DNA of 64,000 bases from Marchantia polymorpha subsp. ruderalis (lineage: Eukaryota > Streptophyta > Marchantiopsida > Marchantiales > Marchantiaceae), in contig AP031352.1 in assembly GCA_037833965.1 (NCBI GenBank), forward strand, positions 31,622,501-31,686,500. Direction: 5' to 3'. Positions within the stretch are counted from its first letter, which is position 1. The number at the start of each line of letters is the position of its first letter. The translations under genes were made by a program, and so were the position numbers. Positions 18,293-52,340 of the stretch are shown in pieces. Below the pieces are notes generated by a model. The model did no database searches, was not told the origin of the DNA, and was given only the letters and a program-made list of their open reading frames with translations.

Positions 18293-21200
18293 ATGCAAGG
18301 ATCTTTCGCGCTACCCCAGCGCCTTTCGCAGCAGTCCCTGACTGTCGTGCACTCTTCCAGAAGCTTTGCTCCTGAGCTGGGTGGTGCATTTCGCATTTGT
18401 CAGTTGCAACCTTTTCTCGATTGCAACGCAGTAGGAGACCACGACCGTCGGTACTTTCCGAGCGGGAGAATTGCATCTTCGAAAGTCACTGATATAGTGA
18501 ATGAGTTCTACCCCGGTAGCCGCGTAAGGGGGCGGGGTTTATCGCTTGCGGATTACGCAGGGTTCAGAAGGATGAGGGGAAAATTGTTTGCAAGTCTTGC
18601 TTCTTGTTCTTACCCCACTTCCATGAGTCCGTCTGTTTCACACCGGGTTATCTCGATTAACGGGCAGACTCTGGATCACAGCTCATGGAAAAGCTTAGTA
18701 TCGGGGATTCCTGGGCCCTTCCGACACAATCCTGCCCTTCCATGGTACAGCGTTCCGTCTGGGGCTCTCAGAGGATTGAAGACTAAACAGTTTGGATCCA
18801 TTTCCAGTAAAAAAACAGGGCAGGATGTATTGGCAAGAGATAGTGACAAAGGTTCGGAGAAGAAGTGGTATCCTAAGAACGCCACGTTGGAGAAAGATTC
18901 AATTGCGGCTCTATACAGCTCGGACAGCGACAGTGGTGATGAAATGGAGAAGAATGAGAAGCTTTATGGCAAAGCCGATACAGGTTTTGATTATGATTCT
19001 GGTAGTGAGAGCGATGACGACGAAGAAGACACGAAGAAACAGAAGAATCAAAAGAAGATGAGAGATATGGAGGAGGAGGATTCTGAAAGTGACAGTGACG
19101 ACGATGAGAGGGAGCTAAAGATGTCGAAGAAGAACAAGATGAAGGAGAAGGTAGAAGTGATAGGAATGTGCGAGGAGCATTCTGAGAGTGACAGCGACGA
19201 CGAGGAGGAGTTGAAGAAGAAGAAGAGTATGTCTAAGGGGACGGTAGAAGTAGTCGGAATGTGTGAGGAGGATTCAGACAGTGACAGTGAAGATGATGAA
19301 GAGAAGGAAATGAGGAAGAAGATGAAGGCCGATGAGAAGGAACTAAAGAAGCAGGCTAAGAAAGAGAAGAAGGAATTGAAAGCAATGAAGAAATTGGAGG
19401 AAGATACTGACGTCGAGGATAGAGATAAGAAGAAGAAGCGAGCTGGCAAATCTCATGAAGATTCCCGGATTTTCGAAAGCAATCATGAGCACGATTCTTC
19501 GTTCTCGAAGGGCAAGGTACAAGTAGCAGAGATGGAAGAGCGAGATTCAAGCTCTGATAGTGAGCATGATGGAGACGTGGATGATATCGTCGAAGTGGTT
19601 TCTGATACCCTGAATGTGGATGAATTGGAAGAGGAGGAATTCGAGCTGGTCGGAGACGATGATCTAGTTGAAGGTACGATGCAATGAAGTAATTTCAGCA
19701 AATGTCTCTGAAATTGGTTGATAAGCCCTCTTAGACCATGCTGTGATGCTTTTTTTGTGGATTTGATTTTTTGATCTATCCGATAGCTAAAGAAAGTCCA
19801 GCTTCAGACCTTTTTTCCACTAACATGCCGCGTTCACCTTGCCCAAGAGTCCGATTCCTACAAGTCCTCAAATCACGAGTTACGTTGCGACTTGTATGTA
19901 GCGTTCTAGACTTTTCGGGACCGACAGGTTATATAACTTGTTCACGTGATATTTTTTAGCAGCAGTGTTAGACTGTAGTTCAAGAAGCACTTATAGACTT
20001 TCTGATTCGCTTGTGACTAACTTTGGACAGAGGCAGAGAACGAAATCGAAGATTACTTTGAAGAATTTGAGGACGAAGATCTAGATGACGACTTTTGGGA
20101 GGAAGAGGAAGGAGAAGCTAAGGTACTCTGATCTCCTTTCTATCCTCTGCTTTGTTCTTCCTGGTTTGAGGAAGAAAGTGAAAGCTATGAACCTCCATTG
20201 GCATCCGTGGTGTAAGGATGATGGGAATCATCTCAAGCTCATGTATACTTCCATGTATATACGATCTCTGTTTTTATGTTTTGCGTAGAAGCTGGATTTG
20301 CATTATCTTACCAAGTACATGCGTAGTGATTTGGATCAAGTAAACTTGAAAATGAGTAGCTTACCAAGAAATGCAAATCACTGGTATCCTAAATGTTTAT
20401 CTTCAGGTTGGTGATGGCGGAGACGGAGGAGGAGTAGTACTTGGTGAGACTCAGTGGGGAAGTAAAGCCTTAGAGTTAGCCGAGGAAGTGGTGAGAGAGA
20501 TGGGAACGGACTTTTCCATTTTCGCCTTCAAAGCATCTACAGATGGCCTCGTACGAGTTCGTCTTGACAAGCTTTCTGATCAGTAAGTTCTGGATATCTG
20601 GCACACTAAACTATGTTCTGATTTTCATCGTTGCAAGATCTTGTGACTTTGAGCGTAGAACTGGAAATTGAGATGAAATTGTGAAAACTGCTTTCTCTTA
20701 TCTGAAGTTGCTGACAAGTATGAAGGCTTGTGAAGCCTGAACATATGTTGTTAGGGGGTTTTACCTTGTTGTGGTAAAACTTCATCTGTTTATCTGTCAC
20801 CTAAAAGTTTGTCTTATGTGTCCTGCGTATTGTCCTTTACCTTCTTCAACTGGATCGCTCTTTATTCTCTTGCCCTCTTTTGCAAACAATTAGAGTCGAC
20901 CCACGCGCTTGTAGCAGAATGGTACGAGCATTTAAGATAGTGAGAACGATATCTGGAGTTGAGAGTAGGTCTCAGTCGATAATGGCCCGCAATGTTATTG
21001 ATTCTCGTTCCTTACACGGTATGTAAAAATGTTGCTGAGAGGTGTAAAAGACGTATATTTATCTGTCTGAAGGGCTCAATATGAAGCATGCTTCCATCTC
21101 AGGATGGATGAAGTAAACTGCTGTACCTCTTCTGCTCTAAAGGTCTAGAAACTCACACGCTACTGGCGGCCACTCACCATCCACTCCAACTTTGAATCTA

Positions 21201-24360: not shown

Positions 24361-25637
24361 TAGTGCTTTTTACTGGAGTTGATGGAAGTTTATCTGAAGA
24401 AAATACAATTTTCAGAAGTCCAACATAGGTTTTGTCTCGTTATAATATAGTGAAACGTCAATATATAATAAAGCGTATCCTAAAGGCCTCGATTAAAAAG
24501 TAACGATGCTTCTTATTAAAAGAAAATAAAAGAACTTTACAAGATGAGAGTATTTAGCGATGGAAACTGCAGCTCTTTATAAATAAACATTGAATTAAAT
24601 TATTCAGATGGATACTACACTTTTGAAAAAAAAAACTAGAATTATGGATTTAGAATAAATAAACTCCACCCTAAGTACTTACATGACCGCCACGTGTCCT
24701 GTTCTGCAGTTATAGCGATTAGTGATCTCCGCCAAGTAGGTATACACAGACGAAAGGGACGGAATTGTACACACTTCCTCTGACCATCCGGCTCCATTTC
24801 ACCTGGTGCCTACATTGGGGCTACTTACGATGTTGGGGTCGACCGTCCGTAGTTAAATGCTTACCGAGTACGAAGAAGAATAACCTTAGGGATAGGAGGA
24901 CCCCATCAACAGTACGTAGCTACCACATGTCCAAATTGACTCGAACTCTCGTCGTAGTGCACATTTGTGGCGACATTGTGCTACCAATTACAACGTAAAG
25001 CCTTCCCTGCTGTCCCTTTCGCCTTCGCCATTGTCACCGTCAATTTACATTGAGACCCTTTTCTTCAGCAGACTTGGACCATCAATTGTACGGCCACATC
25101 ATGCATCACCAACATAGGAAACGGGGCTTCTGTACACGACACGACTCTGTCAGAAACCAGTTACATAGTTTTTACAAGTGGATGGACTCAGTACGTATTC
25201 GATTTCATAGAGTGAATGAGTTAATGGGTTGCTTCGCTATGGGACTTTTGAAATGCCATTGTCTTTCGTGAACCCTAACCAGCAACTCCGTCGGCAATAG
25301 ACAATCGCCATATTTTTATTGAGATGATATTATAGAACCATCGATACTATTCTGTCACTCTTTTTAAGTCAAAGTAAAACAAATTGGTTAAGGACGACAT
25401 CAGGTCAAGTACCTGAGTATCGAATGAAATTCCAAGAAAAAATTTTTCAAACATAATCGAAACCGAATCGTATCAATTTCTGCTACAGTTCTAAATAACT
25501 ACTTTCAGTATTTTGTATCGAGCGACCGAGGACGTACACAAGGCATTTAAACACATGCGGGGAGAAGTATATGGCCATACAGAATTGCCTAACGTATCGC
25601 TATATAATTATTAAATACCAGGATTACGATTAACACT

Positions 25638-26013
25638 AAATTATGATCAATATTGTACTCTTTTATGGTCACTCTCCCTAAGTCAACAATTGAATGGTTC
25701 TATATACAATTGGCATATATCATTGAGATGACATTATATCAATGCAAAATTTTTCTTTAAAATCGAAGTCTCAGAACCCATAACTTCGGTTTGCACCAAA
25801 ACCTTTTGTATTCCACCAGATATTTGAAGTAGTAAACCTACTTCAGTATATGAAGAGCAAAATAGTGTACCATAAAACATAGACTTGGATTATACAAATT
25901 AATTTTGCATTGATATAATTTCATCTCAACAATATATAGTGTTGAAAGCACCATTAATGTTTTGACATAGGGAGAGTGACTCTAAAGGAGTACAGTATTG
26001 ATCATAAATTATT
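25638..26013. repeat. imperfect long inverted repeat, MITE or foldback-like
   Basis: The left arm 25638-25751 and right arm 25901-26013 are reverse complements with scattered mismatches. Shared blocks include ATGATCAATA, GTCACTCTCCCTA, GAGATGA and TATATCAATGCAAAATT. The spacer is about 150 nt. A rearranged third copy of the GAGATGATATTATA and GTCACTC...AAGTCAA blocks lies at about 25317-25371. There is no coding capacity, so a non-autonomous DNA transposon is the best guess. Confidence 0.6.
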
Positions 26014-32039: not shown

Positions 32040-32561
32040 GTGAGTTCGTCTCCTCACAATGCATCATGGTTCTTGCGTAGTGTGTTCCGATGCACGCGGA
32101 GCTCTGTAATCCTTAGTTACACGTGGGTTAGTTCGTTGTCATTTTGTGCGGCCACTGCAATTAGTCGGATGTTTCTCGTTCCTTTTCTGTTCTTCGTCTT
32201 ATGCTCTGAAGCTCGCGTCAATCACGAGGTTTGCGCTAATCATTGTGTCGAGAAGTAATTGTGTTGATTGCCTGACCGGGCAAGGTGTCTCACGGGTGTC
32301 GGTTATGCTTCCCTTTACTCATGGCTCGGATTGGTAACTATTTACGCGTTAGCTATACACGGTAGTGAATCATGTTTTAAATCGTCGTCAGCCTCTCCGG
32401 CGGAGGGCTTGTTAGCCGTCCTCGTTTGTTCGCAGGGTGAATATTGAGACTCGAACGTACATGCTATTCGAGCCGCCAGAATTTTATCATGTCTAGAAGT
32501 AACTTGTTCTGGAGTGTAGGTACTTTCTTTGAATGATCATGGATTCTGTTGTGAATCGCAG
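32040..32561 (+). other. probable 5'-UTR intron of the fusion gene
   Basis: A strong donor (CAG/GTGAGT) at 32040 and an acceptor (TCGCAG/GGG) at 32561 bracket this stretch. The exon that follows starts GGGAGTAGATCAGTG, which matches the 5'-UTR of the SCYL1 paralogue at 41096-41111. That match supports a shared mRNA leader just downstream of the acceptor. Confidence 0.5.
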
Positions 32562-32622
32562 GGGAGTAGATCAGTGCAAACAGGGAGAAGAATCAAGCGG
32601 TCATTTTCGAACATCGTCAACA

Positions 32623-35600
32623 ATGTTGAAGTTTTTGAAGAATGTGGTGGGATCGGCAGGCGGTATCAAGGATCTGCCTTACGTTATCGGAGAGCCTTAT
32701 TCCTCTGCATGGGGCTCCTGGACCCACTATCGCGGCACTTCCAAGGTTAGTCTTCTTGTTCCTGACGTCCCTGTTCCACGAAAATGAGATATGAGTTTGG
32801 GTTGGAGCTTATTTTCTGGCTTTAAGAGTGATTGAAACGGGAGACGACTTGAGTCAGAATGCAGGGCTGGAAAAGCGTTGACGACAACGTTATTCATTCT
32901 TTCTTCGTTTCACATCTGTGTGGACCTTCACCTTTTGTTTCCTCGAATTCACACAAGTGAGCCTCAAGTTGTTACAATGAAGACTGTTTACGCCCTAGAT
33001 CTCATTCTGATGGAGCAAATCTGTTTCGTCGAAGTTCAATTGGCTTTAAATGAATATATATTTTGTTCTGTGTAGCCCGAAGTTTCTGGTATAAGGTCAG
33101 GATTCAGAAGGTGTGATCTTACGTCTTGTTTTTTAAGGTTGCGGTACTTGCGCGCTAATTGATCCCCCGTTTTAAGCTATCGTTCGCATACATGATGTCT
33201 CTCGAACCGAAATGGTGACATGCGAGGTTGTGGTTTGTGGTTATGGCTGATTGTCTAGACGTTATGAGAATTTTCTTGGACAATCAGTAGACAATTCGGC
33301 CTCGTAAAGGTTTCTCGATTTTGTTGTAACTTCAAGGGAATGCTTTTACAATTTTCCGTGAAGGACTTGCTTACTTCGCTGGCCTTGAGGGGTCATTTGG
33401 ATTCTCTGTCAATATTTGTCGTGGATTCCTTATGAAATCTGTGGAATGGTTCCAAATTCGCTTGCTTTTTCTGAATGCACGTTTGAGTTTCAAGGACTCG
33501 GGACGTGACGTACATTGTGTACACTTTCAATCCTTGTATAGCCATATTCTGAGTTGGTATATCATCTGTATGCCTTCAACAGGAAGACAATTCTCCAGTG
33601 TCGATCTTTTCGATGGTTGCAAACGACGCTGAAGATGGCCGATTGGCTGCCGCGCGGATCGGGGCGAAAAGGCTTCGTGCGGTGAGTGTCATCATATTTT
33701 TTCTTGCTCACTTCACTTACTTAGTTAAATCGACCTGATGAACTACCTGTAACTCTACGAGGCAGTGAACCTTCTCTATGACTTCGCAGTCAGAGAGAGA
33801 GTTTCTACATGGATTTATAGGTGAGTCGCTCTTTGGAGATTGATGACATGTCTACGCAGAACGTCTTACCTTCCTATTAATCATTGTACATATGAATATA
33901 GCTGAGCCCTTCTTGTTTACAGATTCGGCATCCCAACATCTTAGAGTTTCTTCACAGCACTGAAACGGAGACGGTGGTTGAAGGCGGTGTTATCAAAACA
34001 ACTATTTATATCGTTACAGAACCGGTCATGCCCCTCGCTGAGAAGATAAAGGAGCTCAACTTCAAAGGAAACCAGCGGTATCCAAATCTGAACTTGTCAC
34101 GTTTGTACATTGCTTGGAGAATCTAGGTTGGCTTGGCTTCTAATGTGTGGTGCATATGTGTTGAGGCTGCTCAGTCGTAGAATGTGGAACAGGACTCATA
34201 GCTTGATAATCTGGGCCATTCTTTAGCGTCCTCGTTGGACATTGGAGCTCTAAGCGATGATAATGTGTTTGCAGTAATGAGTTTTATGGCTGGGGTCTTC
34301 GTCAAATCACGAAGGCGATAACGTACCTCCATAGCGAGTGCGCGCTTGTATGTTTCGCAACCATCTAATTTCTCGTATTTAAACATGTTTAGAAGCATTG
34401 TTGCCTCATCCTCTGACTTCTAAAGCTTACCATGAAGAACAGTCTATGGTACGATTTGAACTCTTTTCTTCCTTGTAAGGGTTCAATTCTACAGTGCAGA
34501 TCATGCCTCATCTTACCACACCTTTTCTGTATGTGGTGTTTGATACACGTGCATTTCGTTGTTTTGAAATGTCAGGTTCATGGGAATGTCTGTGTGGATG
34601 CCGTGGTGGTTACCCGGTCACTAAACTGGAAACTACACGCTTTTGATGCGTTATCTGAGATTGATGGAGCCAACTCAGCTGCTTCTAGCCCTATGCTGGT
34701 AGGCTTCCACTTTAGTTATGCTGAGGAGCGATTGTTGGTATGTTGTGTATGCTATCAAGCCAGAAAACCAGGTTGACATGACTGGAATGTCTTGCCGACT
34801 GTACTGTGTGACATTTCTAGCTAGGTTCATGACCATCTTCCTACCATATTTTGTTTTAGAGGTGTTGAAAGAGTTGTTCTTGCCAGTGTAGGCACAACGG
34901 GTTGGTGAAGTTTGTATAATAAGGGTAATGTTGTGGCTCTTTTAGCAGCAATACGAGTGGTTGGTGAGTCCTCAGTACAAGCCTCAAGAACCTGCGAAGG
35001 CTAACTGGGCTACAATTCGAAGGTCATCACCTTGGGCAATTGAATCGTGGGGTCTTGGTACGCTTGGAACAAATCCACCCCTCATGAAGTTTGTAGGCTA
35101 TCAATCCGTTGGAATTTTCGAGAGCGATGATGGTTGTTCTAGAGTATGATACGTTTTGTTAAACTTTTGCTCGCCTCCTCGACTTTGCAGGTTGCTTGAT
35201 TTATGAAATGTTCTCTGGATCGAAGTTGACAAAGACTGAGGACCTTCGCAACACTGAATCCATCCCTAAGGTGGTTTAATTCCTGTAAGCTTGCATATGT
35301 ACTAGTAATGTGGAATCAGGGCCAATCGCTTTTGAAAGTACGCATGAACTCATTTGATCGGTTATGAATTTGGTGTATGGGGCGTCTGTGCTGCATATTG
35401 CAGAAGATACACTCTTCCTTTACTTGATTGCCGTGTCCGTTGTATCCTTCAGTGTTTCTGCTGATGTTGAACATGTCTTTTATATACTAATCTCGCTTGT
35501 TTACTCTCCAATTGGTTTCCCTTTGTATTGAACGGCAGTAAATTTGACTGTAATGGAGAGCAAGCAATTTATCGGAAGCCCATCTTCTAATATATAGCAA

Positions 35601-37123
35601 ATAGATATCAAGTAGGAAAATGCCATCCTTCTTACGGATTCCGTGCTCCATACTGAACTTAGTTTTCTTTCTCCAACGTTTCAGGCATTGCTTCCTGCCT
35701 ACAATAATCTTCTAGCGGCTGCCCCTGAACGAAGATTGGACCCAGCAAGGGCAATAGAAAGTAGTGGTGAGTTACTTCATGATCGTAGCCTGAGAAAGAA
35801 CTTTTCAAAATCAAAGATGGCCATGGGAATTACAGACTGAGCTTCTGTATCTTAATGTCCTCCTTCAAACATTATCCTTTAGCTATGTTGAGCCTCCCCA
35901 TGGACTGATGAACTTTGCTGGCATTGCACGTGTATGCAGAATTTTTTAAGGATAAGCATGATTCCGGTCAGTTCATGGCCATGGGAAAGGAACATGTGGG
36001 TGCTATCAATCTGGAGGAACGTCAGGAAGTCGAACGTGTCGTAAGGAGGAGAACAGAGGAATCTGGAAGCGAGTTGATTCCCTGCCTTCCAGACGAAGTT
36101 GCTCTTTTGTGTCTCGCTCGTGTGCCTCGCGCTTCGCACCACGTGCTTAGTGCCGTGTGTCTAAGCTGGTATAACCTTCTGCATGACAAGGTGTTTTATG
36201 ACGTAAGGCAGGAGCTTGCGGTGGCAGAGGAGTGGTTGTTTTTGTGGACTCAAGATGCAGACCGATGCAATGTTTGGCACGGGTTTGATCCTGCCACGAA
36301 CAAATGGTTTCAGTTGCCACATCTTCCGAATGAACATAGGACTGCGGGGAGTTCCGCTTCTGCCGTGGTCGATGGCAAGCTCTTTGTTATTGGAGGCCAG
36401 CTCAGTTCTGGTTGTGCGTGTAACTTCGTCTCCTACTTTGACATGCGACATTACTGCTGGAAACAGGCTGCCCATTTGAATGTTGCACGCGCTAAATGCA
36501 TGGCTGGAGTTATCGGCAACCAGTTATATGTTGTGGGGGGTTTCACTGAGCGTGATCAAAATGCAGGAGCGACAGCTGAGGCTTATGATCCGGTGACCAA
36601 TAAGTGGAGGCTCATTTCCAGTATGAAAATCCCCATGGAGCTTTATGACAGTGCAGTTCTCGGTGACAAGTTCTATGTCGTGAACTCGTCCAGTGAGAAT
36701 CTAGTGGGGTTGGTGTATGATCCACAGAAAGATGAATGGGTGGATATGGCCAATGGGCTCAACACAGGTTGGCAATCCAAAACAGCGGCCTTGAATGGCA
36801 AGCTGTATGCTGTAGGTGATTCTCACTCTTCTGAGGGAAAGAATGAGATCTCCGTCTACAATGCTGCTAAGGATGTTTGGGAATCCATCAAAGGAGTTCT
36901 GGATGACACGGCCCCAGTGCTGTCTTGGGGTCCCGAGCTTGTTAGTCTTGGTGGACGTCTTTGTATCGTTGGTACGAGCAGTAAGGCCCACGTCGCTGTG
37001 GTGGATATCAACGAAACTTCCAAACCATCCGTTGCAACCCTCACCTACTATGAGGATATCACGAAGAAAATTCAGTTTGCTGAGCCTCTGCCCAGAGGAG
37101 CTTGCCAAGTTCTCGCGCTGTGA
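32623..37123 (+). CDS. SCYL1-like pseudokinase fused to an F-box/Kelch protein
   Basis: Nine exons: 32623-32745, 33583-33681, 33923-34077, 34275-34347, 34576-34698, 34949-35057, 35191-35270, 35685-35766 and 35940-37123. All phases agree, giving 675 aa with no stop. Residues 1-281 are the SCYL1-type kinase-like domain (GEPYSSAWGSW, RHPNILEFLHSTE, TEPVMPLAEKIKEL, VHGNVCVDAVV, SPWAIESWGLG). HGN replaces the catalytic HRD and no DFG is seen, so it is a pseudokinase. Exon 9 opens with EFFKDK....QFM, echoing EFFQNK.....QFM of the paralogue at 44557. It then reads into an F-box (about 327-370, LIPCLPDEVALLCLARVPR) and five Kelch-like blades (near 430, 478, 527, 571 and 623). F-box/Kelch proteins are substrate receptors of SCF ubiquitin ligases; SCYL1 works in Golgi-ER/COPI traffic in animals. 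One open question is whether the Kelch part also starts independently at the ATG at 35975. Confidence 0.82.
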
Positions 37124-40100
37124 CACATTCAAGTGCCTGCATTTCAGTACAATCGTCGATTGGAACGCCTTTTGGAGCTTTCGAGTTCATCCATCCTTTC
37201 TTATCCAATTTTGCCTCGACAAGATGCCGTCATTAGGGTGTTATTGCTGTGCCTGTCGTCTGTCTGCACTTCACCATGCTGCAAGCACACACCACCCGGC
37301 ACTGATACCGTACTGCCATGAGTCTGGAGTAGTGGCACTGTCTCTTGCAAGGCACAGACTATTTTCTGGTTGTTGATCCCAGCGTTGAAAGAAGACTTTT
37401 GGAAAAGCCGAGGGATCTTGTCGAAATTATTTTCAATGGTGGCGGTGGTACTAGACATAAAAGGAGTATTCTTTCGCGGATCCACTCTTGGTTCGAAGGA
37501 CGAACAGTGGAGAAGTTGGTTTCGAGGAGAAGGTTCTGACGTATCTAGTCGCAGAACTGGTATTGCGGGCTCAACTGCTGCATGTAGATAATCAGGAGGT
37601 GATTTCTGAAGGATAGTGAGTCCTAATTTACTGCTCGGAGAAGTTGCGTTGAAAGACTTAAAAACTCGCAATGGTGCAGGATGACTTTTGGAGGTGTCAT
37701 CAGTTTCACTCACACTCCGGTCTCCGTCTTTGTAGACTGTAAAGCTTTTTTCGTTTCGCTCATCGAAAATCGTAGCTTCGATTATTTCGCCAGAATGGAC
37801 TTGAGTAAATACTCAGACCCGTGCTATGCTTCCACACCGTTAGCATTTGTCCGCAGAAGACTCGGACTCGTGATAGCATTGAGTCATTGATTATGAACTC
37901 TTTGAGGATTGTAACTCGTGGCCAACCTTAGCTGTAGATTCAGCCGGGTACATGACGAGACCTCAACCTTTTATTATTCTGCTTCTTGAAGATGGTTCCT
38001 CATTAGCAGGTATCTTCGATTTTCTTGCCAGTCCGGCAGACGTGTACAGTTGGTCCATAGAAGACACGATCCTTCGTGATGGCTTGTCGTTCCGAGTGCT
38101 CTTTCAGCACACTCAGGTTTCATGGTCCCGATTTGGCGCCGAGTACATGTGTCGTTGAAGAGCAGCCTTTAAAGCCGTGTCTAGTCAAATGTCAGTAGTT
38201 TCTAGAGTAGCTTGGAATGGACGTACTTTTTTCTGGCTCATGGTACCTCTTCTTCGACCTTGTGATGTAACAACATTGGTCATAACGGTCAGAGATTAGG
38301 ATTAGATTTACCAACGATCTTTAGTGTAGTACTCAAGAAAGCGTATTCGTAGGAGAGGCAAACGGCGATGGGAAGCAGGCACGGAGTTTCCCGACAAAGC
38401 TTTTTGTCAGTGCGAGTTGGCCGGGCTGGCCAGCCATGAGTAGAACACAAAGCAGTGGAAGTAAAAGGCCGTAGCTTTCATTGTCCATGGTCAAAGATCT
38501 ACGATCAACATCGCCAGACAGTCACCTCACAAGGTCATGAGTTCTTGATGTAAAAACTTGATGTAAAATTGAAATTCCCCGATGAAAAGGTGAGGTTATT
38601 ACTATCTTATGGTTCACGAACTGATGTGTTTTCTTGTCTTCGACATTCGGTTGATTTTGGAATTCCTCGTTCTACACTTAAGGTAAGCAAACGGTAATGT
38701 TCACGAGTTTCCATAACACATCCAATCGTTGCATGACTTTGAAAGACTGGTCGTCGTGTATGCAGGGCCTCGCTTAATTTCAACTGACCTGATCACTGGG
38801 CGATGATGTGCCAACCCGGCAGTGAGTCGTAATACTTATCGTGATTTGGCCTCAAGCCCAATTATACAAATACTGATTTGAGTACATCTAATGGTATCGC
38901 TGTTGCTTTGGTGAGTTTACTACTCTAGTTCACAATACTGGATGTCTGCGGGAGACACATTATGTAAGCGATTCCAGATGGATATACTGCGTATGAACAT
39001 TTTTGATCGCCTTCTGCTTCCTGAGATCAAAGACGTGTCATTATCATAGCTTAGAAGTGCTAACGAAATTGAACTGCGGCTGTTGTAGACTCGTATGACT
39101 GTCCGTCGCTAGAATTTCTTCTCATTGCTCAACGACAAAGCAGGGACGACGGGTCGCTCTTAGAAAAATTTGCTGGCCGTGTTGAAGGAAAAATACCAGT
39201 CTTTGATTGACAGCGGTAACGAAGAATGCTGAATTTATTATGACATGTTTTGATCCTCAACTTCAAAGGCAGGCTTATCGTTGTATGGGTTACCTCCTAG
39301 TACTAATTTGCACTGCTCGCATCTGATCAGAGAATGATTTGCGAACGAAAATTAGACTGCGAACACCTGCGCCGTATTATTGTAGCGAATACTCTGAAAC
39401 GAAGAACCAGACGTCGTCCGGCTGCGAATCGGCGGATCCGCCCAGACGCTGGGGTAACCGGGGCTCCGACGTCCGCGGGCTGCGGAACCCGCGAACCACG
39501 TGTGAGCAGTCAGAACTGGGTCCCACCTAGTCCGCGCGAAAGTCTCTCGGGAGTCCAGACGGAATCTACAGAAAAGCGCGCACTTTTACCGGCGGTGTCC
39601 GGTGACGAGCTCGACTCGCCCCGAAGACTGTGGGTTCCAATCTTTGTGGATTTTGTCGCAATTTTCATTTGCCAATTTGTTTTATGCCGCATCGGGCCCC
39701 ACAGCCCGATGCGACGGTGCGCAATCTTTGACATCGCCGGTATGAAAATGGCGAAATTGCTCTCACTTGACTTCTTGCAAATCCCGGAGCCCAGTGGAGG
39801 AGTCCACGAGCCCCATCGTTGAGGGCTTTCTCTCCCAAGTGTGCTTGCAAAATCTGCGGTAGTTGTAGAAGTTTCGGTACGGTAATCACCCGCAAGACTG
39901 CCCGCCATTAATAGAAACTGTGCGCCATTTCGCAATATGTTCGGCTCGCGACTAGCCATTTGTAGTAAGAAGATTCGGGCACGTTGGTCGGATGTCAGCG
40001 TGACGCACCATCTGGGCTCCAGAGCCTTCTCGGGCTTCGGTGGAGGAATGAAGCTAGAAAGCAGCCACAGATCAGCTCGAAAGGCAGTCCCTGCCCTTCA

Positions 40101-40849: not shown

Positions 40850-41179
40850 TCGCTCCCCCCCCCCCCCCCCTCGCTCGCTCCCGTCTGCAAGCTGCCGCTG
40901 CTGCCTGCCATCGCTCTGGCTCGCGGCATTCGTCGACGTTCGAGCTCTCTTTCTGTCTCGTCGGGGACGGAAGGGAAGGGAAGCGAAGCGGAGGAGGAGG
41001 AGGAAGGCAGGGCAGAGGACCACGAGAGGAGAGCGCGAGCGAACGAGGAAGGGAAGTGCGTGAGCGAGGGATGGATCGCGGTGCGGATCGTAGAGGGGAA
41101 GTAGATCAGTGATAGAGAGAAAAATTGGAGGTGAGCGGAGCGGGTTCGAGGAGCAGCAACAGCAGCAGCAGCAGCAGCG
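40850..41179 (+). promoter_or_regulatory. promoter and 5'-UTR of the SCYL1 paralogue
   Basis: A run of 16 C (40855-40870) is followed by CTCGCTCGCT and a purine-rich leader. An imperfect CAG repeat (41153-41178) then ends right at the ATG. GGAAGTAGATCAGTG at 41097-41111 is shared with the leader of the fusion gene, so the duplication included non-coding 5' sequence. The transcription start itself is not visible. Confidence 0.5.
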
Positions 41180-44100
41180 ATGTTGAAGTTTTTGAAGGGG
41201 GTTGTGGGATCGGGAGGTGGAATCAAGGATCTGCCCTACAATATCGGAGAGCCTTACTCCACTGCATGGGGCTCCTGGACTCACTACCGCGGCACTTCCA
41301 AGGTCAGTATCGCTGCCGACTTCGTTGGATTTTTTCTTCCTGTGCCTGTTTGCAGGAAAAAGGAACCAGTCTGACGATGAGATCTGGCCAGTGAGGGTCG
41401 GCGAAGGTGCTGATTTATCATGTCGAGGATAAGAGTTTGGGAGAAAGTTTGGGCTGGCTAGAGAGTTGGATCGGTATTTAGGGCTGGACATAGTATTGAA
41501 ATGCACGGGGTGTTGACTCTCAGGTATGAAATGTCCACGGAGCTACTGTATAGCTGGCGTTTAGCCACATTCCGCATATACCATATATTTCATCTGGTTT
41601 TAGCCACTCTCCGGTAAAGGTTCGAGCGGTGTATTCAAGATCCCAAATTCTGGATTTGCGAAGGCCTGGTACATGGTTGCAGGATATAATTTTGAACTTC
41701 TGAAGCTGAAAATATGAAGCTCGAATGTTCAGTGTCTAAATTATAATTGTGGATCCACAATGTGGAGAAATTATACAAGTTCACACTCTTATGTCCTCCG
41801 CAAAGCCTATGCCTGACTTACATAAGAAGTTTATTTTCCACTGGTCTCTACACGAGGGTTAAAATGTGTTGACACTTCAAGTTACCCTCCCGTTTCCTGT
41901 GACGAAATTGATTTTCCAGTTGCTGCTTGTCGCAACACTGGCAAGCTAAGAATCTACACTGTCTACTTGAGTACACCCACATTCTATGTTAGAAAGGATC
42001 CGGATCACGGTTGAAAGGCTACTGAATAGATATTTTGGTGTTGATTATGTAATAGTCTTGCTCGCAACCTCTGAGTCTTCACTGTGGACGCTCTCTGCTC
42101 TGAATAAATGACCATATTGTGGAGATAAAGTTTTTTTTGTGTAAATAATCTGTTCTCGTGGAACTCAGAGTAGGCCACACGTGAAGGATCAGCAGGTAAG
42201 AAGGTCTTCTATCATAGAAATCGATGAGCTGAATCTGTAAAATCATCTTCTGGAATTAACCTGAGGTTTTCTCTCGAATTTTCTCCATCAGGACGACAAT
42301 GCACCAGTATCAATATTTTCTCTTGTTGGGACCAGTCCACAGGATGGACGGCTTGCTGCAGCGCGAAATGGTGCTAAAAGGCTTCGCACTGTAAGACTGT
42401 TCCATGCCGGCCTTCTTTTTCCAAATCTGAATGAAATGTTTAGGCACATAGATCTGTCTGTGTTTGTTGACAAACCGTGAATACTCCATAACTCTCACAC
42501 AGTGAAATGCTTTTACACAGGTTCGGCACCCCAATATTTTATCTTACCTTCACAGTACAGAAGCCGAAGCTATGGAGGGGGGTGTTGCGAAGCCAACCAT
42601 ATATGTTGTCACAGAACCCGTTATGCCCCTAGCGGAGAAAATCAAGGAGCTCAACTTGAAAGGAACACAACGGTATGAAAATGCATTCAAACGATGCATT
42701 TCCATTTGCAGGATGCATCGTCTTCTTGTTACGCAGTGTCACAGCTTAGCCAAGGTGTGGTGTATATAGCTCAAGGCTGTGACAGGAAACTACCAACGAG
42801 TACATATTAAAAAACACAATGTGAATCTTTTTGAAGCCTGCACCTCTTAGGATTTTTCCAATTTGAATCAGATGCAAGTCGGGGAATATGAAAACTTCAG
42901 TCGATAGTAATTGATCAAACTCGGTTCCAATTTGTGAACTCTGACACAAGGTGCATTATTGCAGAGATGAATTTTATGCGTGGGGTCTTCATCAAATTAC
43001 AAAAGCAGTCAGTTTTCTTAATAATGACTGCAAGCTGGTACGATTTTTACCACTGTATATTCTTGGAATTTTTACGCATGCACTTCTTGTTTTTTGTTGA
43101 TTATGTATGAGGTATCCATTTAGAGCAAAGTATTATAGTTTTGCAGTCTGCAAAGCATGGACAGAGTTTCACTTTCCATAGATTTGGGAACCATCTATTA
43201 TAATTCTTCTTGAGAGATTAGCATTTATGAAATATACAGCTTATGCCACACAAGCATGATCTCCTCGGACTTATATTTAAAGATACAAACTTCTGTTCTC
43301 TTCAACATCTCAGGTCCATGGGAATGTGTGTGTGGATGCTGTGGTTGTTACTCCAACCCTCGATTGGAAGCTGCATGCATTTGATGTCTTGTCTGAGTTT
43401 GATGGAGGCAACCCAGCAGCTTCGGGCCCTATGTTGGTAAGTCCCTCAATATTGAAACTAGTTGGGGAATTCTTGCCTACAGTAAAATGGTATTAGGAAT
43501 CGCAGATAGAACAGTATACTACTTTCAGAAATCCCTTAGTATCATATTGAATCTTGAAAATTCCATGTAATTGTGGATTCATTTATCAGTCACGAGGAAT
43601 ATGCTGACCTGTTGGTCCTTCAATTGACATTTCTAGGTCGAGTGGCTCAGCTTGAGTTGTAGAGGGCCTGCAGCTCACGTGCTTTTCAAACGTGTTGTGA
43701 ATTTTGCAGCAATACGAATTTTTGGTCAGTCCCCAGTACAAATCCCAGGAACTTGCAAAAACCGACTGGTCTACCATTAGAAAATCTTCACCTTGGGCAA
43801 CTGACTCATGGGGTCTTGGTATGTTTGATCTATTCACCATGTTGTTGATGTTGCATGATACCATGTCTGTTGATTTGCTATCGTGATCGACCTCTGTTTG
43901 TTTCCATGATGGGAAGTTGGAGAGGTTTTCATCATCTTCTGCCCGTTGTGTCGACCTTGTAGGTTGCTTGATATATGAACTCTTTCTTGGGTCGAAGCTG
44001 ACAAAGACAGAGGACCTTCGCAACACCGCATCCATCCCTAAGGTGGTTCAATTCCTGTAAGCTTTGATTTTGAAACTTTGGTCCATTTAATGAGTCTTGA

Positions 44101-47100
44101 GACTCATTGCTTGGATTTTGTGTTTTTGGCTTGTCATATGCAAACTCCAGGGTGCATATACCATAACTTTTTTGCTTGATCCATTATGGGTCATTCTAAT
44201 GTGCATCAACCGAATACAAGTAAGTCCACGTTGAAGATGTTATTTGTCCAAAGGAACTGACGTAAAGCTCCATTACTCTGCCTTTCCAGACTTTACTTCC
44301 AGATTATCAAAGACTGTTAGGGTCTATTCCGTCACGGAGGATGAACCCCTCAAAGCTGGTAGAAAACAGTGGTGAGTTTCTTCAGAGACTCCCATATGAC
44401 ACAATCCCCTGGAAGTAATCAGGTGTATAGGAATGTGATCAACGAGGTCTTTCTGATTATCATGAGGAGGCTGTTACTTTTTGTACAGTATAAATTTTCT
44501 TGTCAATGAGCCGAAGGTGAAGGCTGAAGGATTGATTCACTTTGTTGTGACTACAGAGTTTTTCCAAAATAAGCTGGTGGAAACTATCCAGTTCATGGAA
44601 GTTCTTAATCTCAAAGATAGTGTGGAGAAAGACTCTTTCTTCAGGAAACTTTCCACTCTGGTTGAACAACTACCACGAGAGATTGTCTTGAAGAAGGTGA
44701 GGGTCTTATGTGCTTTACATCTGCTTCCGTTGTGATCTCAACAGAGTTTCCCTATGGATATGTGCAACTTGTAGGAGATGAGATCATGCCGTGTACTTTG
44801 ATGTGTATTTTATATTCAACAGCTTCAAGCTATCAAACCTGCCAAGTCTTTACCAGTTCAAACTTGTGAAATATCCTGGAAGATTGAGATTTGATGAGAA
44901 TATGGTGGTTTGATTACAGTTGTTGCCTCTTCTCGCGTCTGCACTAGAATTTGGTTCTGCAGCTGCGCCAGCTTTGAATCCCTTGCTAAAGATGGGATCC
45001 TGGCTTGGTCAGGATGATTTCAATAACAAGGTACTATCTTATTCTGGTCTTTGGTGTACACATCAATTTATTTCATATTGTGGATCCATTGCGTTTGGGG
45101 ATGGTCAAGTCAGTAGTGACGTCATTCATATTCTACATCTCGCAGTTATGTAATGTTGAGAACCAGCCCATTCAAGGACCTATAATTATGTTACTTGTGA
45201 ACACATCACATGGGCAGTAATTCTGTGATGCAGAAGATTAAGTGAAAACGATTCAGTTCTTTTTGCGGTATAATCCATGATTATAATTTTGATCCCTGTT
45301 TATTTTGGCAGGTGTTACCAACTGTCATCAGACTTTTTGCCTCCAGTGACAGGGCCATTAGGGTTGGTTTATTACAACATATAGAGAGTTTTGGAAATGG
45401 TCTGTCGACCCAGGTTGTTGACGAGCAGGTGAGTTTGGTTCGGTTGAGCCTTTCCCGCCCATGCGTTGTCCTGTTTAAATTGTGATGTTAAGGTTGAACT
45501 TTTCGGCGGACAGAGTTGCGAGAATGTCCTCAGGTACGATCAAATAGTCTCGATTGTCTTTGCTTAATCTTCGTTGCCTTCAGGTTTTTTGTAGAACATA
45601 GTGATTCAAATATATCATAAGGCCCTACATACTGATTTCGAAATGCTTTGAAAAACTTGTGGTTTAAAAAAATAAAAACAAATTTGTTTCTTGTTGTAGG
45701 TTTTCCCACATGTTGCCACTGGCTTCTCAGATTCTTCAGCGTTTCTACGTGAGCTCACTCTCAAATCAATGTTGACGCTTGCTCCGAAGGTATGTCCATA
45801 TGGGTCATTAAATAGCAAGTACATAAAACACTCAATAAAGAGGAGAGACTGTCAGCAAGAACTTCAGGAGTGAGTGTATACTCTGAATAAACATGGAGAG
45901 GAAACCCACTCTATGCTTTTGCTAAGCCCTGCCCACACTATATTGATGACATGTGGAAATTTTCAACTTGGCACTAAACTTTTCACGTGTTTCCTTTTTG
46001 TGTTATTCTGATTACTGCAGCTGTCTCAGCGAACGATTACTGGATCTCTTCTGAAGTATCTCTCGAAACTTCAGGTGGGCGTTCATCTAGTCAAATATTT
46101 TACGTACTTTTATTAAAGATCTCGATCCGTGATAGCAACTGTGCTTGAATTCACTTTTCAACTATGACATGCAATTTAGGTAGGAGAAGTCAACTTGTTA
46201 AGAAAGAGTGCAAAGGAGAAGGTGAAAAGGATAGGGCCATGCCTTTAGAACCTTGAGGATTGTATCCCAGCTTTTTCCTTGACTTGTCTTTGATATTCGT
46301 TCAGGTTGATGAAGAGCCCGCCATCCGAACAAATACCACCATTTTACTGGGCAATATTGCTGGCCATCTCAACGATGCAGTAAGTGTTGAGTCTACCAAC
46401 TTTCTGTTTCACATTAAAGAAATGAGGTAACTCTTTATAGCTGTAGGCTGTTTGGTCTTAAGGTAAATCATGGAGGTAACTTAGTACAAGTATTCAGTTT
46501 AGTGCTTGCTATTCATGACAGTGGACATTTTCTCTATTACTTGTTTAAGATAGCAGCAGCATATTGTCCAGTTTATTTTTTTGAGACAGTTACAGTATAT
46601 TCATGGATTTTACCCAGTCATGTTTGCAAAGAAATTTAAAGTTATGATACATTCTTTGAATGGAACGCAGACAAGGAAGCGAGTGCTGATTAATGCATTT
46701 ACGGTGCGTGCCCTGCGTGATGGATTCGCTCCTGCGAGAGGAGCAGGTAAAGTACCGCAGTTTCTTCACACATTGGGTTGACTCTTCAGGTTCCTAACAC
46801 CAATTTATAGGTGATTCATAACAAAGAGCACAACTTAAAAAATGCTTTTACCAACTTACACTGTTTTGACATTGTGTGCTTGAAGGAATCATGGCACTCA
46901 CTGCAACTATGGAATTTTACGACGCAACAGAAATAGCAACACGTATACTACCCCACCTCGTCATATTGACAGTTGATGGTGACAGGTACTTGCGAACATT
47001 CTTATGAACGAAATACTTTTGTTTACTCTTTCTTTGTCTTGGTTGATGTTCTATTTTCGTCTTACAACATAGGGGATCAATCACTTATGATCCATCTAAA

Positions 47101-48875
47101 TATGTTCTATGCTTGTATTTGATTGATCTTTTAGTGTTTTTCGCTTAGGTAGTATTTTTTGGCTAATTAATGCTGCACTCGTCTGGCAGTGATGTGAGGA
47201 CAAAAGCCTTTCAGGCAACAGAATCTTTCTTGCAAAGTATCAAGCTCCAAGTTGATAAGGTATGTTTACAGCTGGCTTTTTTGGCCGAGTTTACAGTCGC
47301 GACTTGAATGAAATTATTACTTACGCAGGCTATGAACATGGCCGCATGGTATTTTACCGGGGAGCTTATTAACTTGCACATTTTTTAACAGATGCATACA
47401 GGAGGAGATAGCATGACTAATCTAGCGTCCGCTGCTGGATTAAGTGCTAATTCTGGACTTTTAGGGTAAGCTTCAGTATAATGTGCAGAGTTTTACTCCC
47501 TACCCTCCACGACTCCTCACATTTTCTCGTCATGCTACGCCTGTCCATATTCCATCATCAATTCTCTATCGTCAAGTTGAAAATTATTTCACGTTCTCTT
47601 TAAGAAGGTTGCTATGCAAGATGTTTGAAGTATAGGCACTGTTTGCTGAAGATGTTATATACAGTTTTCCTCTTTATATACTATACCATCCAGTACGAAA
47701 AGCTTCGCAATCGCTTGATGCTCGAGTGATGTTCGACTACTGTCTACATTGTGAAGGGTGGACCATAATGCTGAAATGTTGATTATCTTTCAGATGGGCA
47801 GTAAGCTCCCTAACGACAACCAAAGCAAAAACAGAAATTGGCACTCCTGCCACTACTCAACCTCTGGAAACCACCTCAACGGCCAAGATCTCAAGTAACT
47901 CTGGTATGTTTCTAGTATTTCCTCTTCAAGTTTGCCAAAAGAGGTTTAGAACCTTGTGCCCCTCTAGGTCAGGGTTGAGGAAGTTGAAGGATTCAGTGAC
48001 TTGGATTTATGAACTGCTACAATGATTGCCATGACTGTGATCACGAGTGAAAACACTTCATTGCCCTGAGTATTGTCAAACGAAACTGCTTTTACAGCAA
48101 CATCAGTCTCCGAGAGACCTCCACCACCTCCAGTCTCTGTGTACACTTCGTCCTACCAACCCGAAGCTCCGGCCGTTGCATCTCCTACGTCAGATGGATG
48201 GGGGGACATCAGAGAGAACGGGAACGGGAACGGTGATGATGACGACGCCGACGGTTGGGGAGACATGGGATTATTGGAGGAACCCTCGCTAGCAAGAATA
48301 CAAGCAGCGCAGCAGAGACCGGTGGCTGCGCCGAAACCGCAGATGTCCACCACCAACACATATACTGTAAAATCAAGTAAGCTCTTCTGTAACCTTCTGT
48401 GTGATCAAGGAAGCCAAGGGGTCGGACATGCAGTCGATTCAACCACGAAACCTATTTGTGATCGCTTTGTTAACTCAGAGGCAAATAGACGTTTCGCAAT
48501 CGAAGCAAGGACTGACGGGATTGAACTGTCGCAGGTGTGGATACCACACGAACGAGTGTCTCTAGCAAGAGTTATGCCGAAACTCGAAAAGCGGATGACG
48601 ACGACGATCCGTGGGCTGCCATCGCCGCCCCTGCTCCTTCGAGCACCGCGAGACCTCTGAGCTCGGCTTCGAGCGCGTCGGGTGGGAGGGGCTCGTCTGC
48701 TCCACGGGTAAGACCGGCCGGCCAACATGTGTCGTTAGGCCAACATGTATCTTTAGAAAAAGCTCTGGGAGGAGGATCGGAGGCGAGCAGTGCTGGGCGT
48801 GGTAGAGGTAGGGGTAGATCGGCACCCATGAAATTGGGGGCTCAACGCGTAACTCGGCCTTCCGAGAACTTGTAA
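41180..48875 (+). CDS. SCYL1-like N-terminal kinase-like protein, full length
   Basis: Exons: 41180-41302, 42292-42390, 42521-42672, 42965-43037, 43314-43436, 43710-43818, 43963-44042, 44290-44371, 44557-44696, 44920-45030, 45312-45428, 45700-45789, 46021-46074, 46305-46379, 46671-46746, 46886-46985, 47190-47259, 47392-47465, 47794-47903, 48098-48376 and 48535-48875. They give 825 aa in phase, close to Arabidopsis At2g40730. Residues 1-280 form a pseudokinase (HGN for HRD). Residues about 280-570 form HEAT-type repeats (DSVEKDSFFRKL, LEFGSAAAPAL, DRAIRVGLLQH, DEEPAIRTNTTILLGNIA, RKRVLINAFTVRAL). The tail is Pro/Ser-rich with two DGWGD motifs and a DDDDDPWAA motif. Animal SCYL1 binds COPI and acts in Golgi-ER retrieval, so a similar cytoplasmic role is inferred. 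The first eight exons match the upstream fusion gene in phase, and seven of the eight match in length (exon 3 differs by one codon). Confidence 0.95.
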
Positions 48876-48936: not shown

Positions 48937-48942
48937 AATAAA
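48937..48942 (+). terminator. poly(A) signal of the SCYL1 gene
   Basis: AATAAA lies 62 nt after the stop codon in an AT-rich 3' flank, a plausible near-upstream polyadenylation element. Confidence 0.5.
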
Positions 48943-50419: not shown

Positions 50420-50641
50420 TTGTTGTAATTTGGCCCGGGAACGAGTTGTTTCCCAAGCTCAAACGCTTTTCATCGATAAATGAATGGACATGTACAGAAA
50501 AGCAAATCTCTAAGAGATGGACGAGCGAGCCTAAGAGAGTCGTTGTAATTACAATTTTTGGAATGGGAACGAGCTGTTTCCCAAGCACAAACGCTTTTCA
50601 CCAATGAGTGAATGGATATGTACAGGAAAGCGAATCTCTAG
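50420..50641. repeat. tandem direct repeat overlapping the 3' end of the TANGO2-like gene
   Basis: A copy at 50420-50514 is repeated at about 50540-50641. Shared blocks include GTTGTAATT, GGGAACGAG, TGTTTCCCAAGC, CAAACGCTTTTCA and ATGTACAG. The right copy ends at the stop codon of the minus-strand gene, so both copies lie in its presumed 3'-UTR. Confidence 0.75.
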
Positions 50642-51534
50642 GCACAGTCCTCGAGAGGAAATCGAAGCAATGTGTCCTTCCAAACGCCACCTTCCAAGCT
50701 CCTCTCGAAGAAAGACACGGTTCCGTCCGTCCGGATTCCAATCACAGACATGCTTCGAGTGCCATAAGCTCTGTCGAAAAGAGCCGTATCCACAAATATG
50801 GAGCCCACGTCACGCTCCATCGCCTCAGTGCATCCAGTTTCCGCCGTCTGCACGGACACATCGTCGGGCTTGGTCCGATCGTGCAGGACCTGCTCGACGA
50901 TCAGCTCATTCGGAAGATCGTCGCCCTCCTCGGCAGATGCAGATGCCGAGGACGACGAGAGGGCGGACAGAACAGCCTCGAGCTTGCGCTTGCCCCTCTC
51001 CATTTTCCACCACTTGCTGTCCTTGCCGCCATTGCTGAGCGAGTGGAAGCCCGGGCGCAGCAAGTGCACGACGGCCTTGGCTCCTTCGGGTCGATTCGAG
51101 AGGAAGGCCATCTCGCGGCGGCGCACGTCGGCCACGATCAGGTTGAAGCCGTTGTAGTCGTCGGCGGCCCGCGCCACCTCCTCGAGGTAATCCGCAGGGC
51201 CCTTGGCGCTCCTGAGGAAGAGCGTCGGCAGCGCCCCGCGGCTCGTAACGTCCGTGCGCTCGGTGCCGCGGCCCGTCAAGAACTTCGCCTCCCGAACGTT
51301 CGTCAGAAACGCCAGCCGCCCGCTCTTCGTCATTCCCAGCCACGTCCCTCCGCCGCTCACATCTCTCCCGCCCACGATGCTCGAGCTCGTCGGGCCATCG
51401 CCCTCTGGCTCTTCTTCGTCGTCGTCCCAGCAGTGGAGTGCGAGCGTGGGCCGAGAATGGAACTCGTCCCTGTTGACCGCCAGCACCAGCCAGAACCCCG
51501 GGTGCTCATCCAGCGCCCAGAACGAGATACACAT
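50638..51534 (-). CDS. TANGO2-like protein (NRDE family)
   Basis: A single-exon gene of 298 aa. It begins MCISFWAL and carries the family hallmark NRDEF at residues 21-25, then GGRD, GGGTWLG (61-67) and FLTNVRE, followed later by YNGFNL and LSNG. This is the NRDE/TANGO2 superfamily. In animals TANGO2 loss disturbs Golgi organisation and heme or lipid metabolism; its biochemistry is not settled. Length fits the family (about 270-300 aa). The coding sequence is GC-rich, unlike its flanks, and has no introns, unlike its neighbours. An Asp/Glu-rich insert (36-46) and a Ser/Ala-rich insert (192-204) look like lineage-specific loops. The start at 51534 is the only one giving the conserved MCI N-terminus. 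Confidence 0.93.
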   Translation of the reverse strand: MCISFWALDEHPGFWLVLAVNRDEFHSRPTLALHCWDDDEEEPEGDGPTSSSIVGGRDVSGGGTWLGMTKSGRLAFLTNVREAKFLTGRGTERTDVTSRGALPTLFLRSAKGPADYLEEVARAADDYNGFNLIVADVRRREMAFLSNRPEGAKAVVHLLRPGFHSLSNGGKDSKWWKMERGKRKLEAVLSALSSSSASASAEEGDDLPNELIVEQVLHDRTKPDDVSVQTAETGCTEAMERDVGSIFVDTALFDRAYGTRSMSVIGIRTDGTVSFFERSLEGGVWKDTLLRFPLEDCA

Positions 51535-52340
51535 CCTTCGCTATCTTTCGCAGCCGCGACGATTTCTTCAATCCTATTTTGTTTCGATCTCGCCTCTTCA
51601 ATTGAGGTGATAAGGTATGTACTGCTCATCTCAATCCCGTTCCCATCCATTCCGTGTTATTAAGTTGCGTTCTAGTCCCCGTGACAGCTTGCTTTGTAGT
51701 CATGTTGTTGCGTCAGTGTTTGGGGAGTCCAATCTGGCGTGAAGCTGAACACATCATTCTGCTCGTGTAGAGGAGAGCAGATTTATAGGTTTATATGGTA
51801 ATTCTTGCTGCTGATGCTTGTAACTGGAGCAATGCTTACATTATGACCTGTCCGTCGTCCTACACCGGTCGCTGAAAGATCGGAAGAATCGAAGTCCGAA
51901 TCTTCAAATGTGGACTTGGTCGAGGCCGTAGTCTTGTGTCATGAGCCTGTGGCAAGTCTCACAATGGCTGAAGACAGTTGTGCCCCTGTCTACTACTGTA
52001 CACTTCCGCCACGCAACTAGTGGAGTAGTGGACCTGATCTTGTCAAACGGGAATGGTCAGCCAAAGCAAGTTGCCGTAACCGATCGAAATCCTTCCACGG
52101 ATGGATTGGCTTGATTCGTGATGGTTTGTCGATGGTAGATGTAAATCGCAAGTTCCTGCTGGTTGGAATTGACCGAAATTTCTAACGTAATAAATCACGG
52201 TTTTATGACGGAACGATATAAGCTCATGCGTTCTTGTACTGATAGTAGAGAGAATTTCAACCTGAACCTAAATATCTATGAGCTACAATGTCATCCCGCG
52301 ACCTTATCCACTGGAAGCGGAACTGGTCAGATTAATTGTT
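51535..52340. other. upstream flank of the TANGO2-like gene, nothing recognised
   Basis: Mixed-composition DNA that should contain the promoter and leader of the minus-strand gene. No further gene is supported. Confidence 0.45.

Follow-up and report, generated by a model that had tools for sequence, protein, structure and literature searches.

A stretch of 64 000 nucleotides of the Marchantia polymorpha subsp. ruderalis genome (C3:31622501-31686500 of a 241.5 Mb assembly of 9 contigs; hereafter the window, to which positions refer unless a contig is named) contains a gene in which the first eight exons of a SCYL1-type pseudokinase gene are predicted to splice to a ninth exon encoding an F-box and Kelch repeats. 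This is probably, and with good confidence, an old chimeric gene formed by tandem duplication of DNA, in which the SCYL1 promoter, leader, exons 1 to 8 and the opening of exon 9 (about 13 codons) continue in frame into an F-box/Kelch gene, and its product would be a substrate receptor of an SKP1-cullin-F-box (SCF) ubiquitin ligase. An earlier note on this DNA had proposed a single fusion gene. The proposal stands on exon structure, in-frame carry-over of SCYL1 sequence, lack of space for a second promoter, and selection; a tandem SCYL1 copy, a breakpoint within an exon, and a Kelch remnant had been overlooked.

Structure of the SCYL1-F-box-Kelch gene

The fusion gene is on the + strand and has nine exons, as placed on the sequence, and eight introns, all of which are GT-AG and consistent in phase. 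Its spliced frame is 2028 nt in length, encoding 675 residues followed by a stop, which is included in the 676 open codons previously reported. There is no N anywhere in the window. The structure of the gene is confirmed, on more support than the earlier note knew of, and it is likely that the hybrid protein predicted from this structure is encoded.

A full-length SCYL1 gene of 21 exons and 825 aa (41180-48875, + strand; hereafter gene 2) is the tandem sister of the pseudokinase half. It sits 4 kb downstream of the fusion gene, with a start-to-start distance of 8.6 kb, and its whole protein has Pfam matches above the cut-off to Pkinase (32.9 bits) and HEAT (27.7 bits), with the individual HEAT repeats all below cut-off. 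The assignment of the eight exons to SCYL1 exons 1 to 8, splicing in phase into a long ninth, is borne out by gene 2, in which the phases are the same and seven of the eight lengths are equal, the remaining exon being 155 nt as against 152. The numbers of nucleotides identical to gene 2 are 109/123 in exon 1 (32623-32745), 67/99 in exon 2 (33583-33681), 49/73 in exon 4 (34275-34347), 97/123 in exon 5 (34576-34698), 85/109 in exon 6 (34949-35057), 69/80 in exon 7 (35191-35270), and 48/82 in exon 8 (35685-35766), where the pseudokinase ends; in exon 3 (33923-34077), 113 of 155 alignment columns are identical. This amounts to 59-89 % identity per exon for the DNA, and to 210 of 280 residues (75 %) for the protein. 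Because the match to a full-length SCYL1 gene is in phase and exon by exon, the fusion architecture exceeds chance. When the whole assembly was searched with the pseudokinase half (E ≤10, 17 candidates scored), all 15 matches were in the window, eight in the fusion gene and seven in gene 2. Intron 6 is the sole intron covered by a blastn match (34941-35292 to 43702-44064, 73 %). Judged by these matches, the pseudokinase half is an old partial tandem copy of SCYL1.

The homology extends upstream of the coding region. Within the 5′ leader of the fusion gene (32540-32622, + strand), the 54 nt at 32540-32593 align with the leader of gene 2 at 41072-41125, with a local alignment score of 44 that none of 10 000 shuffles equalled; this homology was not picked up by blastn within the window. 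The frame stays open upstream to an ATG at 32533, which would add 30 codons, however agreement with gene 2 favours the start at 32623.

Exon 9 (35940-37123) had been taken as coding for an F-box and Kelch repeats. Both are supported by Pfam matches above the cut-off, however the exon is not purely Kelch, as its first 39 nt (35940-35978) are still SCYL1 exon 9, aligning with the first 42 nt of exon 9 of gene 2 (44557-44598) at 26 of 42 columns. With both ends of the alignment anchored, none of 20 000 shuffles was as good, and of all AG sites in the window (3959, tested without the two acceptors themselves) the only one to score as high was that of gene 2 exon 9, two bases on. At the protein level, the fusion exon opens EFFKDKHDSGQFM and that of gene 2 opens EFFQNKLVETIQFM, so that about 13 SCYL1 codons precede the F-box/Kelch frame. 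The F-box/Kelch module itself (35975-37123) has candidate ATGs of its own at 35975 and 35981 and a stop at 37121-37123. An extension of the SCYL1 homology as far as the F-box was considered and is unsupported, with 352/5000 and 2411/5000 shuffles as good past QFM. On this alignment, the break is within exon 9, after the kinase-like domain, at or just after 35978, with the frame continued. Intron 8 (35767-35939, 173 nt) occupies the position of SCYL1 intron 8, which is 185 nt in gene 2. With an intron of nearly unchanged size, the Kelch gene can have contributed little 5′ DNA, and hardly any space is left for a separate Kelch promoter.

In the predicted protein, Pfam identifies Pkinase at residues 36-247 (E 3.1e-9, 37.0 bits, above cut-off), F-box PF00646 at 328-368 (E 7e-6, 26.2 bits, cut-off 20.5), and Kelch_FKB95 at 404-627 (E 3e-26, 93.1 bits, above cut-off), with Kelch_1 at 86.9 bits. 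The F-box/Kelch open reading frame (ORF) matches 97 PDB sequences at E ≤0.001, the best 60 of which are kelch-like proteins, an NS1A-binding protein, and SAKe designs, which we take to be designed Kelch propellers. The Kelch repeats are therefore predicted to form a propeller. The kinase domain is putatively catalytically dead: by eye, VSIF, HGN, and AFD seem to stand at what we take to be the positions of the catalytic lysine, of HRD, and of DFG. No HEAT repeat and no domain of the PAS/LOV family was found in the 675 residues (Pfam, E ≤10). The C-terminal coatomer-binding motif is absent, the fusion protein ending in CQVLAL and gene 2 likewise ending in RPSENL. A phmmer search of PDB with residues 1-319 gave no match at E ≤0.001. 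An AlphaFold2 single-sequence fold of the F-box/Kelch part was too poor (mean pLDDT 48.7) and was not used, and a megablast search of plasmids with exon 9 gave no match, a result that is uninformative for this question.

Selection and alternative readings

Over the 280 codons of exons 1 to 8, the fusion gene and gene 2 differ at a synonymous proportion (pS) of 0.57 and a non-synonymous proportion (pN) of 0.14, giving synonymous (dS) and non-synonymous (dN) distances of 1.08 and 0.153, and a dN/dS of 0.14. Across 294 codons, there are 51, 37, and 132 changes at codon positions 1, 2, and 3. Even in the worst case, with all of the replacements on the fusion branch, dividing 0.153 by half of 1.08 gives a ratio of about 0.28; a fusion branch free of constraint since the duplication would show a dN of about 0.5 by itself. 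In simulations of a neutral branch with 0.41 changes per site, none of 5000 runs was free of stops. On the dN/dS of 0.14 and the lack of any neutral simulation without a stop, we conclude that the pseudokinase half has been maintained as a protein through most of its history. For the Kelch half, the length, the Pfam scores, and the lack of stops speak for constraint.

Several observations weigh against the fusion gene as read here. The dN/dS is a rough average over the pair, without an outgroup and with dS near saturation, and it covers the pseudokinase half only, the Kelch half having no close relative in the genome (34 % for the best). Exon 8, which adjoins the junction, has the lowest identity of the eight. 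The carry-over into exon 9 is weaker when the alignment is not anchored, with 92/5000 shuffles (protein) and 141/10 000 (DNA) as good. Neither AATAAA nor ATTAAA was found in 37124-37900 after the Kelch stop, where there is only a TGTAA at 37738; gene 2, by comparison, has AATAAA at 48937. The fused transcript and protein are themselves predictions from DNA.

The first alternative is that the locus has two outputs. A cryptic promoter, in intron 8 or further upstream, would give a short transcript on which the F-box/Kelch protein starts at an ATG of its own (35975 or 35981), and the SCYL1 exons would serve only as its leader or encode a truncated protein. Two in-frame ATGs do stand where the SCYL1 homology stops, the second of which (GCCATGG) is by eye in good start context, and in the ten best Kelch matches after the self-match the similarity starts at residues 25-33 of the ORF, with one exception at residue 9. 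However, an own promoter would need foreign 5′ DNA for which the nearly unchanged intron 8 has scarcely any room, and selection on the pseudokinase exons would be needless were they a mere leader. This alternative is unlikely.

It is very unlikely that the gene is a decaying chimeric pseudogene that is open by chance. In favour of it, expression of the fusion is a prediction, partial copies are often dead, and the stop is not closely followed by a canonical poly(A) signal; against it stand the low dN/dS at a dS of about 1.1, the failure of every neutral simulation to stay open, and eight intact GT-AG introns. Slightly less probable again is an additional splice form in which exons 1 to 8 skip the Kelch exon and join gene 2 exon 9, producing a hybrid SCYL1. 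The phase at the end of exon 8 is that at the start of gene 2 exon 9, however an 8.8 kb intron spanning the promoter of gene 2 would be required, and the open Kelch frame would be left unexplained. Least probable of all is an assembly error joining unrelated pieces, for although the locus is known from the assembly alone, the window has no N, the junction is in frame with SCYL1 homology flanking intron 8 both before and after, and the divergence of the copies is too great for collapse.

Probable origin by tandem duplication

The parents of the chimera can be sought on either side of it in the window, with the full SCYL1 gene on one side and on the other a 271-nt decayed remnant of a second F-box/Kelch copy (13809-14079, + strand), comprising its 3′ end and part of its 3′ untranslated region (UTR). 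This remnant was found by blastn (62 % over 219 columns, E 5e-11) and by local alignment, for which none of 1000 shuffles was as good. It corresponds to 36935-37204, a segment that takes in the final 62 codons with their stop and some 80 nt of 3′ UTR. Its frame is interrupted by a stop in the tblastn match, and in its first 41 codons the differences at the three codon positions number 13, 12, and 18 (each of 40). On these differences and the stop in frame, the remnant is considered dead.

The remnant lies 18.5 kb upstream of the fusion gene on the same strand. This placement fits tandem duplication, because a Kelch-SCYL1 pair copied once leaves, in order, the Kelch parent, a SCYL1(5′)::Kelch chimera, and a full SCYL1. 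In the simplest scenario, a single head-to-tail duplication of such a neighbour pair, the Kelch gene followed by SCYL1, would have had one end where the Kelch gene begins and the other inside SCYL1 exon 9, and the upstream Kelch copy would later have decayed. The odds of this single-event origin are about even, and the chimera itself is independent of it. The spacers count against it, as they are unequal, at 18.5 kb upstream and 3.9 kb downstream, and no homology between them was found (blastn in the window) other than that of the leader and of the Kelch 3′ end. Two dispersed repeats in the longer spacer, at approximately 26.0-26.85 kb and 28.1-28.9 kb, account for only about 1.6 kb of the difference. 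These have at least 25 and at least 15 copies, at 66-84 % and 79-93 % identity (counts that are lower bounds, from 40 rows of matches and 39 of 335 candidates scored), and are probably transposable elements. Likewise, the ORF at 18182-19687 (+ strand, 501 codons) has no counterpart in the short spacer. By eye it is rich in acidic residues and lysine, it contains a 93-nt internal repeat at 19073-19322, and about 620 of its bases have an 84 % copy on C7; it has no Pfam match at E ≤0.01. An imperfect long palindrome is also present at 25637-26011 (69 % over 399 columns).

Outside the window, relatives of the Kelch half are distant. A search of the assembly gave 47 matches at E ≤0.001, including the self-match and multiple pieces per gene, and the best other match (C4:8476562) is 34 % identical. 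At the DNA level, a search of the assembly (E ≤10) returned the Kelch locus only. Since even the 62 % remnant nearby in the window escaped this search, the result excludes near copies only. A recent Kelch retrocopy inserted into SCYL1 was considered and is unlikely, given the 34 % identity of the best other match and the 3′ UTR homology of the upstream remnant.

Elsewhere, six matches to the Kelch query lie within 370 kb at C9:18433017-18799717, covering much the same part at 27-28 % identity, and there is a TGA inside five of the six best matches among these Kelch-like places. They may represent a local amplification, since decayed, of a different Kelch gene. Within the window, a tRNA scan and an Rfam scan at gathering scores gave no match. 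Adjoining the full-length SCYL1 gene is a 300-aa ORF (50638-51540, - strand) whose match to Pfam TANGO2 (3.2e-63) is nearly full-length; the neighbours SCYL1 and TANGO2 both have Golgi-related names.

Predicted function and comparison with known systems

In F-box/Kelch proteins generally, it is the F-box that contacts SKP1-cullin, and substrate binding falls to the Kelch propeller. The fusion product is most likely an SCF substrate receptor, as had been suggested earlier: the F-box and Kelch domains are present, and the role would follow from them, with docking to SKP1-cullin through the former and binding of a substrate through the latter. The putatively dead SCYL1 kinase domain may then act as a recruiting or sensing module and would probably bind partners that SCYL1 itself binds.

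Two roles had been offered for the pseudokinase, to bring the ligase to COPI/Golgi clients or to act as a dimerising or substrate-sensing module. In the accessible portions of two papers on mammalian SCYL1, a COPI/coatomer-binding motif, RKLD-COO-, is placed at the extreme C terminus (PMC2832016), and self-association is ascribed to the HEAT repeats, with the kinase-like domain binding GORAB (PMC6328613). With the HEAT repeats and C-terminal tail gone from the fusion, the argument for COPI/Golgi targeting is weak, and dimerisation loses the repeats to which self-association is ascribed. The second proposal fares better in a partner-recruiting form. As only the kinase-like domain, of the type that binds GORAB, is kept, a recruiting or sensing role is likelier than COPI targeting.

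A fuller proposal, which we put forward tentatively as a possibility short of even chances, is that this is a long-kept plant SCF receptor with a SCYL1 pseudokinase replacing a sensory domain. It would bind partners of SCYL1 or sense a ligand, would hand these or Kelch-held substrates to the ubiquitin ligase, and would replace the role of the lost F-box/Kelch parent. If this is true, a pseudokinase has given rise to a natural, long-kept targeting module for an E3 substrate receptor, and traces of its parentage can still be read, in part, within one stretch of DNA. The fusion offers a direct test of the function of the SCYL1 kinase-like domain in isolation, separated from the HEAT repeats and from coat binding, and of the way in which sensor-F-box-Kelch proteins originate. 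In agreement with the earlier note, no description of a SCYL-F-box-Kelch protein was found among the open-access papers listed, judged by titles and the starts of abstracts.

Chimeric genes from tandem duplications that disregard gene borders are documented in Drosophila, according to the available part of PMC5460883. As in those, the 5′ end of one gene has here been placed on the 3′ part of a neighbour; this case differs in that the fusion is old, at a dS of about 1.1, and belongs to a plant, and in having one supposed parent left only as a remnant. In comparison with SCYL1 and the SCY1-like pseudokinases, exons 1 to 8 and the kinase-like domain are homologous, however where the family has HEAT repeats and a C-terminal tail, the fusion has an F-box and Kelch repeats. 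Rice SCYL2, for example, is described in an excerpt of PMC11054224 as having a kinase domain, HEAT repeats, and a C-terminal fragment. A precedent for SCYL-related fusions is an Aspergillus felis Ataxin-2 chimera with an ARM-like, CIK-related part (PMC12898128, from the portion available), although both the partner and the lineage, a fungus, are different.

Plant F-box/Kelch (FBK) proteins likewise have an F-box followed by Kelch repeats (Kelch_FKB95); the fusion differs from these by the pseudokinase of about 280 residues before the F-box, and its best match in the same genome is the distant one noted above. A similar arrangement is that of the LOV/F-box/Kelch proteins ZTL, FKF1, and LKP2, which have the same order of an N-terminal sensing or binding domain, an F-box, and Kelch repeats. 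In the accessible text of PMC7968664, the N-terminal LOV domain of ZTL is able to bind its Kelch domain, a contact proposed to place substrates held by LOV close to the E2. In the fusion, the pseudokinase would stand in the place that LOV has in ZTL and FKF1, the likeness between these proteins being in the order of their parts.

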